Position numbers and translations under genes: made by a program. Shown here one piece after another: positions 10,242 to 17,407 of a stretch of DNA of 50,130 nt (position 1 is its first letter; the number at the start of each line of letters is the position of its first letter). The DNA is taken from positions 1 through 50,130 of the forward strand of contig JAQBPK010000102.1 in NCBI GenBank assembly GCA_028287565.1. The letters run 5' to 3'. The notes beneath the pieces are model-generated. The model searched no databases. It saw only the letters and a program-made list of their open reading frames with translations, and was not told where the DNA came from. The stretch comes from Vulcanimicrobiota bacterium (lineage in GTDB: Bacteria; Vulcanimicrobiota; Vulcanimicrobiia; Vulcanimicrobiales; Vulcanimicrobiaceae).

Positions 10242-11405
10242 CTATAGCCAATCGCCGAAAGCAGCACGAGCTGCGTATTCTCGCCAAACGTTTAGTAACG
10301 CTGGCCGCATCTCGTCGTCGTTCTCCGCCGCACCTCCCCAGCGCATGAGGTACAGGACCGGATCGATAAATGTCTCTTCGAATGACATTCGCGTAAAGTC
10401 GATGTGAGAAATGGGTAGCGTTCCACCAGTTGGAAGAGGAAATCGACCATGGTGGATGCTCCGATCATTGTAACGAAAAGCCAATGTTGCGCTCACGACG
10501 GGCCCTAGTCCAAGCGCTCGCAGAGTCCACGACGACAAGGCATATCCGCTCGCCATGACGCGAAGGACTTGATATAGCAAATTGTTCCGCTCATCAATAG
10601 GCAAGCGCAGCTCAACATCTCCGCTGGACCCAACGTAGCAGCGGCGGGTCCTTGTCTCGCGATCCGGGTCAAGCCCCTCGATGGGAACATCATGGCGGAA
10701 GAGTACGCCATCCGGTAGCGTCTCGGCGGTCACGTCGCCCTTGTTCAGACCTGGAAGAGTTCGCACCATCTCCTCGATCTCCAATTGCTGTGCGCGGCGC
10801 AGCACGCGAGAGCGCGGTCGTTCGGGCGACAGGCGGATCGCAATAAAGTCTGGCTGCGGAGACGCAGCATCAAAGCGGATTTGGCCCATGGTCTCCGCTG
10901 GGCCGCCCGGCTCCGTGTCTTGCCGGCGGTAAAGCAACGCTTCAAGTTCGCGCAGCGCCAAACCATCGATCTGCGTGCCGCGCCGCACTGGAAAGCGACC
11001 TCGCTCTTCCGTGTACTCATGAGGTGCAATGTCGCTTTCGCCAACGCGCACGATAAGCATAGATTCTTGTCCGCCCGCGCTTTGATAACCAAAGACATCA
11101 ATCGGCACCGTCGGGTAAGCTCGCGCCAGCAATTGACTCCGCAGTCGCCGTCGCGCCGGCTCGTCTACAGCGAGCATAGCATGCGAGGCGCTTAAGGGCA
11201 CCCCATCGGCCGGATCGTTGATTCCAACGACGATTAGTCCGCCCGTGGCATTCGCCATTGCGACAGCTTCCTTTGAAACTTGCTTGTTGTCGAGCTGGGC
11301 CTTGAACTCCAGGCGCTGCGTCTCTTGATTTATCCCGGCAAAGTAGGCAAACAGCTCTTCGTATGTCGACGATTCAAGATTATCAATATCGGTACCGATA
11401 TGCAT
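10242..11405 (-). CDS. AlbA_2/Schlafen-type putative ATP-binding or DNA-binding protein
   Basis: N-terminal ETQRLEFKAQL...EAVAMANATGGLIVVGINDPADGV signature. Confidence 0.8.
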   Translation of the reverse strand: MHIGTDIDNLESSTYEELFAYFAGINQETQRLEFKAQLDNKQVSKEAVAMANATGGLIVVGINDPADGVPLSASHAMLAVDEPARRRLRSQLLARAYPTVPIDVFGYQSAGGQESMLIVRVGESDIAPHEYTEERGRFPVRRGTQIDGLALRELEALLYRRQDTEPGGPAETMGQIRFDAASPQPDFIAIRLSPERPRSRVLRRAQQLEIEEMVRTLPGLNKGDVTAETLPDGVLFRHDVPIEGLDPDRETRTRRCYVGSSGDVELRLPIDERNNLLYQVLRVMASGYALSSWTLRALGLGPVVSATLAFRYNDRSIHHGRFPLPTGGTLPISHIDFTRMSFEETFIDPVLYLMRWGGAAENDDEMRPALLNVWREYAARAAFGDWL

Positions 11406-12666: not shown

Positions 12667-12927
12667 ATGCCCGGGCACGGACCGAAGCTGCCGACGTTCG
12701 GCGGCGATTCACCGACGAGACTCACCGCAACGGAGCGCACCATCCTGCGCGCGCTTCGTGATGGCCTGACACTGACGGAGATCGCGGCGGGATTGAAGCG
12801 TTCCGAGTTGACAGTGCGCACGCACATCCGCAACGCGCGCGCGAAGCTGGACATCCGCGAAACCGCTGAGCTACGCCGGCTGCTCGCTGCGGGCAACCTC
12901 GACGGTCAGATATCCGAGCCGGGCTAG
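12667..12927 (+). CDS. Stand-alone LuxR-type HTH protein
   Basis: LTATERTILRALRDGLTLTEIAAGLKRSELTVRTHIRNARAKLDIRETAEL. Confidence 0.7.
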   Translation: MPGHGPKLPTFGGDSPTRLTATERTILRALRDGLTLTEIAAGLKRSELTVRTHIRNARAKLDIRETAELRRLLAAGNLDGQISEPG

Positions 12928-14603
12928 CCGCGCTGTACCCGGCGAGCGGGCCCGAGTTCCGAGGCACCGTCGAATGCCCACGATCGGGCTCCGATTCCAC
13001 GGCGCGCGCACGCGACGAGGATCTGCACGTTGCTCGTGGTCCCCAGCTTGCGATGGAGCGATTGCACCTGCGTCCGCACGGTGTTGTACGCGCGCCCGGT
13101 TGCGTCAGCGATCTCCCGCTGCGTGCGGCCTTCCAAGAGGTAGCGCAGGACGTCGCGCTCCGCCGGCGTTAGCATGGCGATCAGCGGATCGACCGCCGCG
13201 CGCGCCCACGGCCCGAGCCGGCGTCCGACGAACGAGCGCGGGAAGTGTTCGCATATGACGGCGACGGCGCGATCGAGGTGCGCGCCGGTCGCCGTCGGCC
13301 CCGGCAGCGCGTCCAGTTCGATCAGCGAGACCACCTCGCGCCAAAGGTAGCCGCACGAGCGAAATGATTCCACGGCGGCCGTGAACGACGCCGCGGCACT
13401 CGGGACGTCACCCTCCCCGAGCCGCACCAGGCCCAGCACATGTGCGTACCACCCGGCGAAGCGCGGATCGCGCTCGCGGCGGTACAGGATGCGCGTCGCG
13501 TCCATTGGTCGTACAATTTCGTGGAACCGTGCGAATGCCGCCGACGCGGCGCGCACGTCACCGAGGTACGCGTACGTTTCGGCGAGATGCATGAACGCAA
13601 CGCGTTCGTCGTCCCTCGTCGCATTCCAGTCGATGCGTTGCGCGAGAGCCGTCGCACGATCTGCGGATGTTCGTGCGGCGGCAGTTTCGCCGAAGAACGA
13701 CGAGATCGCGGCGCACGCCGCTCGTGTCCAAACCCGCCACGCTGGCGTCTGCGCGGCGTCCTCAGCTTCGCGCATCTTCGCAAGCGAAGCCGCGCCGTCG
13801 CCGTCGAGCGCGAACAGCCAAGCATCGTCGTAGCAGAGTCGTAGAAATGCTGCTGACGGTCCGGTCGCCGGGAGGCCACTGCCCGGCAACGCGCGCGAAC
13901 CGCGCGCGGAGCGGTGCGTACCGGGCACGGTCGCCGAGCGCAGCGTCTGCTCGAGCGCGGACGTCTGCTGCACAATGGTCGTCGCGAGATCGACGTCGCG
14001 CTCACGGCACCGCGCATAGGCACGCGCAGCGCTGCGGAACAGCAGGAGCGCGTCGGCGAAGCGCGTTGGCGTTGGGGACGCCGCGGCGATGAACGCGCGC
14101 AACTGGATCGCCCGCACGGCTAGCACGTCGCGATCGTTCCGCTCGGCGTCGCGCGCGAGCTGTTCGGCGACGCCGAGTTCGTCGGCGCTCCAATGTGCGA
14201 CGGCGCGGAAGTACGAAATTTCGGCACGAACCATCGCGTGCGCGTTCTCACGCTGCGCTGTATCTGCGATGGCCGCGAGTACGGCAATGCCGCGCGCGGG
14301 CGCCACTCGTGCCAGCGCGGCGCCGTGCAGCATCGCGGCGGTCATGCGTTCGTCAACGTCGAGAATCGTCGGAATGAGGGGCGCGAGTTCCGCCGCCGCG
14401 TCGTCCGGACGCAGCAACCTTAGCATGGCTCGGGCACGCAAGAGCCAAGCTTCGACCGGCGCTGGCTCTCCGATCCGTACGGCCCCCAGGAGGTCGAGTA
14501 CCGCGCCATAATCTCCACGGACGTACGCGTCGTGGGCGGCGGCGATCGGGAGCGGGGAGGCCGCGGTGGCAGACCGCCGGCCGTAGCGTGTTGGAGTCAG
14601 CAC
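12924..14603 (-). CDS. LuxR-family transcriptional regulator with TPR-like N-terminal region
   Basis: C-terminal LTPAERDVLRYLLEGRTQREIADATGRAYNTVRTQVQSLHRKLGTTSNVQIL; alpha-helical repeat N-terminus. Confidence 0.8.
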   Translation of the reverse strand: MLTPTRYGRRSATAASPLPIAAAHDAYVRGDYGAVLDLLGAVRIGEPAPVEAWLLRARAMLRLLRPDDAAAELAPLIPTILDVDERMTAAMLHGAALARVAPARGIAVLAAIADTAQRENAHAMVRAEISYFRAVAHWSADELGVAEQLARDAERNDRDVLAVRAIQLRAFIAAASPTPTRFADALLLFRSAARAYARCRERDVDLATTIVQQTSALEQTLRSATVPGTHRSARGSRALPGSGLPATGPSAAFLRLCYDDAWLFALDGDGAASLAKMREAEDAAQTPAWRVWTRAACAAISSFFGETAAARTSADRATALAQRIDWNATRDDERVAFMHLAETYAYLGDVRAASAAFARFHEIVRPMDATRILYRRERDPRFAGWYAHVLGLVRLGEGDVPSAAASFTAAVESFRSCGYLWREVVSLIELDALPGPTATGAHLDRAVAVICEHFPRSFVGRRLGPWARAAVDPLIAMLTPAERDVLRYLLEGRTQREIADATGRAYNTVRTQVQSLHRKLGTTSNVQILVACARRGIGARSWAFDGASELGPARRVQRG

Positions 14604-14708: not shown

Positions 14709-14958
14709 CAGCGCGAATGGTCACCGGGCAATGCCGGTGTCAAAGATACGTCGTCACGCCGACCCTCTCCGGGGTGTAGGCGAGTTTCCGCTAGGTGTGG
14801 TAGCGGACTCGCAGAGAGGATCGGCGGAACAACGGCGCCCCGCACGAGCACGGCCCCGAACACCCCTCGATTGCTACCGTGAGGATGTCCGTCCGGTTCA
14901 CCGGACGCGACTCTATCTTCTCGCGCTGCCGCTGTATCTTCCATACTGCGCTCGCATT
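14709..14958 (+). ncRNA. Structured intergenic element, copy 1 (candidate RNA; strand inferred from position only)
   Basis: Shares blocks with copy 2 (CAGCGCGA, GTCACGCCGACC, CCGGGGTGTAGGCGAG, TACCGTGAG, TCCATACTGCGCTCGCATT); hairpins with compensatory differences. Confidence 0.55.
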
Positions 14959-15126
14959 AGTCCGGCACGCTCGGCTCGAGTCGTGCGCCGCGACGAGTCG
15001 GCTTTGTACCGAGCAACTAAACGCACCGCTGAAACAGCGACGGCTTCGTTGACAATTAGCGATTAATGTGCGACCACATGAGAGTTACCTCCGTGGTGTG
15101 GGCGGTTCTTGAAAAAGGGCATTCCC

Positions 15127-15966
15127 ATGAGGCAAATATCAGAGCCGCTCGCAAGGCTCGCTTCTTCGCTGTTGTGTATCTCGGTCGGACTGGGCCTGGC
15201 CGCGTGCGGTGGACGACCGACTACGAACGGCTCATTCACGCCTGCGTTGGCGTTCAAAGACCACGCTCGCCACACGAAGGCTTGCGCGCAAAGCAACGAC
15301 CCGAACACCGAAGACCCGTATACGGCACTGACGCCGATACCGGGCGAGACCGATTGCGGCGGCGGTGGTGGCGCAGGCGGTGGTGGCGCAGGCGGCGGTG
15401 ATGCTGGCGCTCCAGCCGATGGTGGTTCCGGGCTGGACTTCACGACAGCTGGGGTGCCCGGTTCCACGATGCCTGCTCCACTACTCGCCACGCTGCCTGC
15501 TACAGCCGGCGCAATCTGCGGCTCGCCAATTCAGTCCCTTCCGCTGGGCAGCAACCTCCCACTCGGATCTACGGGCAAGAGCACGGACGTCGTTCAGGTG
15601 TATTATCTGTACGAGCCTTCGACGCTCAATCCGAACCCTGCCGCCAATCCCGCAGCAACGCTGCAGAGTGGACAAACGATCGTCGGTTTCGTATACGTGA
15701 CTGCAGGTGTTCCGCCGAACACGCCTGGGAAATATTTCGTTCAATCGACGGGTGCCGACGCAGACTTCGTCAGGAACTTAGTGTCTGCGATTCCGGCAAT
15801 CGGGGCTCTGCTCAATGCGATCAACGTCAGCACGACCGGCGCGTTCAGCCAGGCGCTGACTGCGGCCCAGGCGAACGCGATCTTCGTGGAATATCCCCTA
15901 AAGGGCAGAGGTACAGGGAGCGGTCCGTGCTTCACGACGCCATTGCCTCAGTCGCAATGGGCGTAG
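15127..15966 (+). CDS. Secreted/lipoprotein-like protein with Gly-rich linker (LPLGxNLPLG family)
   Basis: Signal sequence with LAAC lipobox-like motif, CGGGGGAGGGGAGGG linker, SLPLGSNLPLGSTGKSTDVVQVYY motif. Confidence 0.65.
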   Translation: MRQISEPLARLASSLLCISVGLGLAACGGRPTTNGSFTPALAFKDHARHTKACAQSNDPNTEDPYTALTPIPGETDCGGGGGAGGGGAGGGDAGAPADGGSGLDFTTAGVPGSTMPAPLLATLPATAGAICGSPIQSLPLGSNLPLGSTGKSTDVVQVYYLYEPSTLNPNPAANPAATLQSGQTIVGFVYVTAGVPPNTPGKYFVQSTGADADFVRNLVSAIPAIGALLNAINVSTTGAFSQALTAAQANAIFVEYPLKGRGTGSGPCFTTPLPQSQWA

Positions 15967-16421
15967 TTCGCGCTCTGCCGCTACTGATCGTCGCGGTAGT
16001 GTTGATCCCACATAGCGCTATCGCCGTACAGCCGCCGGCACCAGGCGCGCGTTGTTCCGGCGCAAGCCTGCCGTTGGGTGCAAATCTGCCGCTCGGAACG
16101 TCGTCTCCGGAAACAGACGTGGTCGACGTACATGTGATTCGAAGCGCAATCGGTTCTCAGCTTGCCGGCTGGTACTACAGCAATCGAAATACTGACGCGT
16201 TCGTCCAAGTTGTAGGCGGCCAGGAGCAATACGTTGCCGGACTATTCACGGCCGCCGGGGCGACGAGCGCGGCGGCGTCTGTGATCGGGAACAAGCCGCT
16301 TAGCTTCATCCCAATCAGTCGAACTGAGTCACTCGCGTTCGGACGTTATGCAGCTTCACGGAGTTTCATGCAAGGCTGCTTCGTGCGGCCGCTGGACGCG
16401 GCCGCCGGTTCATCGCGCTAA
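15957..16421 (+). CDS. Secreted protein paralogous to the upstream gene
   Basis: Signal peptide MGVVRALPLLIVAVVLIPHSAIA; SLPLGANLPLGTSSPETDVVDVHVIR matches upstream protein; shared C-terminal CF..PL. Confidence 0.65.
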   Translation: MGVVRALPLLIVAVVLIPHSAIAVQPPAPGARCSGASLPLGANLPLGTSSPETDVVDVHVIRSAIGSQLAGWYYSNRNTDAFVQVVGGQEQYVAGLFTAAGATSAAASVIGNKPLSFIPISRTESLAFGRYAASRSFMQGCFVRPLDAAAGSSR

Positions 16422-16450
16422 CATACGTCTCGGCTGCGTTCGGCCCGGAT

Positions 16451-16719
16451 CAGCGCGACGCTCTGGGGAGTACCGGGGCGAACCGCGGTGCATGGGGAAA
16501 GAGCACCGTCACGCCGACCGCCCCCGGGGTGTAGGCGAGCGCCGCTCTAGGTATGGCAGAGCGCGACTCGCCGAGGCGATTGACGTGACGATGGGGGACC
16601 CCGACGAGCCAGCGCACCGAACATCCCGGTTGGTACCGTGAGTGAAGGTCGCGCCGGCTCGCCGGGACGCGTCCCGATCTTCCCGCGCCCCGGCGGAGCG
16701 TCCATACTGCGCTCGCATT
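16451..16719 (+). ncRNA. Structured intergenic element, copy 2 (candidate RNA; strand inferred from position only)
   Basis: Same conserved blocks and stem architecture as copy 1 in direct orientation. Confidence 0.55.
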
Positions 16720-16766
16720 GCTCGTAGGCGATAGAGAGCTTATGAGGGGCGCATGTCATGGAGTCA

Positions 16767-16799
16767 CTTTGTGTTATGATGCGAATCCATGACACAAAG
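16767..16799. promoter_or_regulatory. Near-perfect 12-bp inverted repeat spanning a TATGAT -10-like element and the ATG at 16789; putative AbiEi-like operator
   Basis: CTTTGTGTTATG / CATGACACAAAG (11 of 12 pairs), 9-nt spacer. Confidence 0.6.
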
Positions 16800-16903: not shown

Positions 16904-17407
16904 ATGACGTCCAGTGCGCTCGCCTATCACTCACGAACCGGGACCATAGAGCGCCTCGGCCATGGCGTTTATCGCCTGGCCGACTTTCCGTCCAGCCCCC
17001 GCGAACCGCTTATCGCCGCTACCGCGGCGCTCGGCAAGGACGCCGTCGTCTCGCATGAATCCGCCCTTCAGCTGTACGGCGTATCGGACGTCGCGCCTTC
17101 ACGGCTGCATGTCACCGTTCCGCGCGATCGCCGCTACGTGACTGCGCCGGCCGACAACGTCGAACTGCATACGACGACGCGGCCATTCGCGCCGGGGGAT
17201 GTCGTTCAGCACGAAGGATTCCGTGCAACGTCGCTGGCTCGCTCCATCGTCGACGCCGCTCGCACACACACTGCGCCCGAGCAGATCGTCATGGCCGTGC
17301 GAGAGGGCCTGCGCCGCGGTCTCGTGGCGCCACGACAGCTGGAACGTGCAATGAAAAAAGCACCGAAACGCGTTCGTGACCTCATCGAAGAAGGTCAGTC
17401 CGCGTGA
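16904..17407 (+). CDS. AbiEi-type antitoxin/regulator; N-terminal wHTH coding sequence extends upstream in this frame but lacks a start codon
   Basis: Frame upstream of 16904 encodes LAQFASDRNGIFTASAARAVG, then MTSSALAYHSRTGTIERLGHGVYRLADFP...VSHESALQLYGVSDVAPSRLHVTVP. Confidence 0.75.
   Translation: MTSSALAYHSRTGTIERLGHGVYRLADFPSSPREPLIAATAALGKDAVVSHESALQLYGVSDVAPSRLHVTVPRDRRYVTAPADNVELHTTTRPFAPGDVVQHEGFRATSLARSIVDAARTHTAPEQIVMAVREGLRRGLVAPRQLERAMKKAPKRVRDLIEEGQSA

Follow-up and report, generated by a model that had tools for sequence, protein, structure and literature searches.

What is the block of about 250 nt that occurs twice, at 14709-14958 and at 16451-16719, in the window (the whole 50,130-nt stretch of DNA analysed here), and does it act as RNA, as DNA or as a mobile repeat? 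The preliminary description took it for a structured, covarying functional RNA and placed it on the plus strand. All of the shared, ordered blocks that it quoted were found at their positions, as were the apical stems CCGCTA/TAGCGG (14788-14793/14801-14806) and CGCTCT/AGAGCG (16543-16548/16558-16563) and the sequences given for the 3' stem, CGTCCGGTTCACCGGACG (14890-14907) and CCGGCTCGCCGG (16654-16665). The two copies, w1 and w2, share 74% identity over ~207 nt (E 8.6e-24), with their direct-repeat blocks in register at a spacing of 1755-1761, and the resemblance is therefore not due to chance. What recurs elsewhere, including on other contigs of the same genome, is the central 75-80 nt alone, out of the ~250-nt block. 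The conserved unit is thus this central part plus an extension of its stem, and the originally proposed extent was too long.

Two covariance models describe the central part, R1 built from 15 copies and the minus-strand model R2 built from 27. Both recover the two window copies, with E-values that are to be read as rough.

14754-14828, minus strand: hairpin core of copy 1 (R1 77.6 bits, E 1.8e-12; R2 67.8 bits on the minus strand)
16509-16587, minus strand: hairpin core of copy 2 (R1 76.2 bits, E 3.6e-12; R2 70 bits on the minus strand)
14770-14779, minus strand: one-sided bulge CUACACCCCG of copy 1, invariant and open in the fold
16525-16534, minus strand: the same one-sided bulge in copy 2, placed on the same basis

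Read on the minus strand, the hairpin consists of a 15-bp outer stem (consensus GCCGCCGAUCGUCUC / GAGACGAUCGGCGGC) and, beyond a bulge of one base, the inner stem GCGAG/CUCGC and a tip that varies: some tips are short, and others are long and contain a second CCACACC. The outer stem of the window copies is extended in the fold by several further pairs into the flanks. The 9-10 nt bulge is near-invariant in alignments A5 and A6, and in almost every one of the 30 copies the minimum-energy fold leaves it open. Minus-strand folding energy is well below expectation for both copy 1 (z = -6.66 over 136 nt) and copy 2 (z = -3.92).

The stems are maintained by compensatory change. Both sides have changed in 13 of the 22 pairs of alignment A5, which was fitted to the covariance model; its covariation score of 0.211 compares with 0.099 in shuffles, none of 500 of which scored as high. 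An unfitted MAFFT alignment of the minus strand gave 0.316 against 0.211 when shuffled (again 0/500), with 92.3% of cells paired, a cell count that is inflated by relatedness among the sequences. Compensatory changes above chance thus coexist with conserved loops, as is characteristic of structured RNA. Rfam 15 returned no match at the gathering cut-off in the window and 20 homologous loci, and a permissive Rfam scan gave chance-level matches only. The covariance statistics and the Rfam scans together bear out the proposal of a functional RNA outside the known families.

The strand is a different matter. Outer-stem mismatches read on the plus strand comprise 48 C.A and 6 G.U; the 48 C.A mismatches become G.U wobble pairs on the minus strand, which places the RNA there. 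All 16 of the 16 informative base pairs lean to the minus strand (sign test 3e-5), and folding is more stable on that strand in 29 of the 30 copies. For comparison, the 250-nt plus-strand interval of the preliminary description folds with z = -2.09, although that interval differs from the 136 nt over which the minus-strand fold of copy 1 was scored. The T-rich tract is likewise one-sided, lying 3' of the hairpin on the minus strand with no matching A-rich stretch at the other side. Because the wobble bias, the folding energy and this tract agree, we place the RNA on the minus strand and not on the plus strand assumed earlier. Mutation of C to T linked to transcription could contribute to the C.A/G.U bias, yet it would also indicate minus-strand transcription. 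The asymmetry of wobble pairs can in this way correct the strand of an RNA called on sequence alone.

Two other readings of the block were rejected. The strand evidence contradicts a plus-strand riboswitch. A minus-strand peptide (AREDR...HGSNR), which had been raised as a coding alternative, finds no support: relative to w1, w2 has a shifted ATG frame, and no conserved reading frame runs through the element, whose lengths of 64-97 nt are multiples of 3 in 4 of 27 cases.

The remainder of the 250-nt block has a different character. Its proposed outer 5' stem (CACCGG/CCGGTG versus ACCG/CGGT) is not maintained in the whole-block homologues L069 and L155, nor is its outer 3' stem. The conserved 3' end of the block, TACTGCGCTCGCATTA, has the look of a DNA operator with dyad symmetry and not of RNA; it is kept in w1, w2 and, in altered form, in L069 and L155.

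14944-14959, no strand assigned: dyad TACTGCGCTCGCATTA (TAnTGCGnnCGCAnTA), a putative DNA operator at the right end of the block, outside the RNA
16705-16720, no strand assigned: second copy of the putative dyad operator, read in the sequence and conserved

With a hairpin and a separate operator, the 250-nt block is best described as a duplicated regulatory region, and w2 appears to be a local duplicate of that of w1. The genes around the two copies are as follows.

12924-14603, minus strand: TPR protein with a C-terminal LuxR (GerE) DNA-binding domain (Pfam GerE 5.6e-9, TPR_19 0.009)
15109-15966, plus strand: secreted or lipoprotein-like ORF A, no Pfam match
15927-16421, plus strand: secreted ORF B, with a motif like that of ORF A, no Pfam match
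16904-17407, plus strand: AbiEi-like antitoxin/regulator downstream of copy 2 (Pfam AbiEi_4 9.9e-8, AbiEi_1 4e-6)

The TPR-LuxR gene lies downstream of RNA copy 1 and shares its strand. ORFs A and B (15109-16421) have the common motif LPLGxNLPLGxxxxxTDVV and are divergent from the TPR-LuxR gene. Just upstream of the AbiEi-like gene, at 16754-16794, an inverted repeat TGTCATGGAGTC/GAATCCATGACA surrounds a TATGAT -10 element and is likely the autoregulatory operator of an AbiE-type toxin-antitoxin locus. A Schlafen AlbA_2-domain protein (Pfam 1.4e-13) is encoded at 10242-11405. The pair of secreted proteins that the repeats were said to bracket is a setting peculiar to the window locus; elsewhere, the neighbours are TPR-LuxR or XRE regulators and zinc-ribbon ORFs.

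The hairpin copies are intergenic. With w1 and w2 counted as one locus, 6 of 7 loci in the genome of the window lie within ~1.5 kb of a TPR-LuxR gene, a linkage expected by chance at ~1.6% per locus (binomial 1.3e-10); the same holds for 5/8 loci in genome G007 and 2/3 in G008. The TPR-LuxR paralogue family has 18 members in the genome of the window, just 6 of which have a hairpin copy, and no convincing divergent copy was seen at the remaining TPR-LuxR genes. Orientation relative to the LuxR gene varies (same-direction, downstream-convergent or upstream). Other copies adjoin an XRE regulator.

At many loci, an ORF of about 60 amino acids encoding a zinc ribbon (ZnR; motif CxxCGHxxSxHDxxGCxHxxPGTRxxRPLxCxC) ends shortly 5' of the hairpin. 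About ten hairpins lie 15-150 nt downstream of such an ORF on the same strand, and 10 of the 15 ZnR hits in the genus are just 5' of a hairpin in this manner. Model R2 added an eleventh, divergent, ZnR-paired hairpin (G003:C433) beside a ZnR ORF earlier thought to be unpaired. The ORF has no Pfam match and looks protein-coding from the substitutions between two paralogues (pS 0.31, pN 0.12). As separate observations, the ZnR ORF or its remnant is divergent from the XRE gene in L124 (1501-1605, genome G005) and in the right flanks of L070, L051, L056 and L065; the XRE gene has a GTG start directly after TATACTTCCGGC, a spacing that suggests a leaderless mRNA. Genome G005 has kept the ZnR ORF, and its hairpin is absent.

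The family is narrowly distributed. A search of 60 genomes with R1 found copies in 7, all belonging to the genus of the window; the 49 genomes from elsewhere in the phylum gave no hit. R2 gave a total of 30 sites in 8 of the 11 genus genomes searched, with 1-8 per carrier genome, the genomes being mostly draft assemblies of environmental samples; a ninth R2 match in the genome of the window is a known copy read antisense. The carriers are uncultured soil bacteria of Candidatus Eremiobacterota / WPS-2, several of their genomes coming from palsa samples. Candidates for a wider distribution were set aside: pattern matches outside Eremiobacterota do not exceed 34-37 bits, the top two (Mycobacterium, L094, and Quadrisphaera, L108) lie inside long ORFs (...AYTPDG... 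and ...AYTPEG...), and two pattern matches on viral contigs score just 20-24 bits.

Within the genus, the hairpin is vertically retained. At one orthologous locus, it can be aligned among five species although neither flank can. A second locus, beside an XRE regulator, retains it in seven species, in one of which (L050) the left neighbour differs. L070 and L056 have lost the ZnR ORF and kept the hairpin, an argument that selection acts to maintain the RNA. L070 also has a promoter-like AAGTATGCTACC on the minus strand just upstream of the hairpin, and its placement is compatible with a stand-alone RNA of ~80 nt.

These observations lead us to consider it fairly probable that the copies form a new, genus-restricted family of structured regulatory RNA made from the minus strand, either a small RNA or a 3'-UTR/terminator element. 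The hairpin would most likely be the 3' end of a short transcript. It may belong to a small RNA that stands alone, or it may form the 3' UTR of the small zinc-ribbon mRNA; in either case transcription would diverge from a TPR-LuxR or XRE regulator gene or take place downstream of one. The long GC stem, with the short T-rich tract after it, would end and protect this transcript. A protein or a target RNA would likely make contact at the single-stranded CUACACCCCG bulge, which has an echo in the second CCACACC of the long tips, and the function of the RNA is probably regulatory. Trans targets of the bulge were rejected as candidates: the genome of the window has 9 occurrences of its complement, GGGGTGTAGG, of which 8 are the elements themselves and one lies outside them.

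The 3' end is the part on which the closest alternative turns.

14741-14753, minus strand: 3' stem extension (CGACG) and T-rich tract TATCTTTG of copy 1, terminator-like (T enrichment and fold)
16496-16508, minus strand: 3' stem extension (CGGTG) and T-rich tract CTCTTTCC of copy 2 (T enrichment and fold)

Over the 30 copies, positions +4 to +13 hold 102 T where 48 were expected, a count reached by none of 5000 random draws, and the enrichment is unchanged when one member per orthologous group is used. The tract is short; it is weak or absent in several copies and missing in those of the XRE class. A generic terminator scan did not flag the hairpin. A plain intrinsic terminator, or an mRNA-stabilising 3' hairpin of zinc-ribbon or LuxR transcripts that makes no regulatory contact via its bulge, would fit the same-strand position 3' of the ZnR ORFs, the long stem, the T-rich tract and the intergenic placement. 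Such an element would, however, need neither an invariant 10-nt bulge nor an internal stem common to 30 copies, and the unevenness of the tract and the restriction to loci with a few regulator families also speak against it, so that we regard it as unlikely.

The hairpin might instead be a cis-acting leader, attenuator- or riboswitch-like, for the downstream minus-strand gene, here TPR-LuxR (12924-14603). That gene does follow on the same strand in the window and at the similar locus L069, but several loci have a distant or a different gene next on the minus strand, or none at all, hairpins of the XRE class are followed by a convergent gene, and there is no constant position upstream of one same-strand gene class; a leader is accordingly improbable.

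Beyond a family of structured regulatory RNA, a more specific role can be proposed, which we hold as a tentative and rather doubtful idea: the hairpin may be a dedicated RNA partner of the lineage-specific TPR-LuxR (and XRE) regulators, in places a dual-function one that combines the ZnR ORF with the hairpin, whose CUACACCCC bulge would bind a protein or target RNA and so couple the paralogues into one network. The tight tie to a paralogous regulator family yields testable predictions on RNA control of these regulators. The work also adds a covariation-supported RNA family to the phylum Eremiobacterota/WPS-2, for which a full-text literature search returned no paper that also mentions structured RNA.

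Among known systems, the family resembles REP/BIME elements and their RAYT transposases in being an intergenic, dispersed palindrome with a plus-strand GTAG beside the hairpin; published REPs carry GTAG and usually number more than 100 copies per genome (PMC2817692; PMC3733652). An origin as a REP-like repeat mobilised by a RAYT/Y1 transposase, or as another MITE, can draw on CGGGGTGTAG-GCGAG...CTCGC on the plus strand of most copies, with GTAG at the stem foot, where REPs have GTAG or CGTC, and on the one Y1 transposase in the genome of the window. Yet it is very improbable, given 1-8 copies per carrier genome and not hundreds, no Y1 transposase (PF01797) in the other genus genomes, among them G007, which is 95% complete and has 8 copies, the lack of any confident copy next to the RAYT-like gene, where the best score is 18.8 bits, retention at orthologous loci despite diverged flanks, and strand-asymmetric wobble pairs; the same retention disfavours the structured mobile repeat offered earlier as an option. 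The single RAYT-like gene of the genome, at L036 1468-2055, is the sole one among the genus genomes searched. In contrast to REP/BIME elements, the hairpin family has few copies, a larger bipartite stem, vertical retention and an RNA-type wobble bias on the other strand, and most of its carriers are without a RAYT.

Divergent pairs of a regulator and a small RNA, such as SgrR/SgrS, are another comparison, and include dual-function small RNAs with a small ORF. As in those pairs, the proposed small RNA would end in a GC hairpin, in some cases carry a small ORF, and adjoin a regulator gene; the regulator class differs, and the likeness is one of arrangement. Small RNAs with C-rich unpaired motifs pair with Shine-Dalgarno sequences, and the invariant, C-rich, single-stranded CUACACCCC recalls such motifs, although here it forms a one-sided internal bulge within a long stem.
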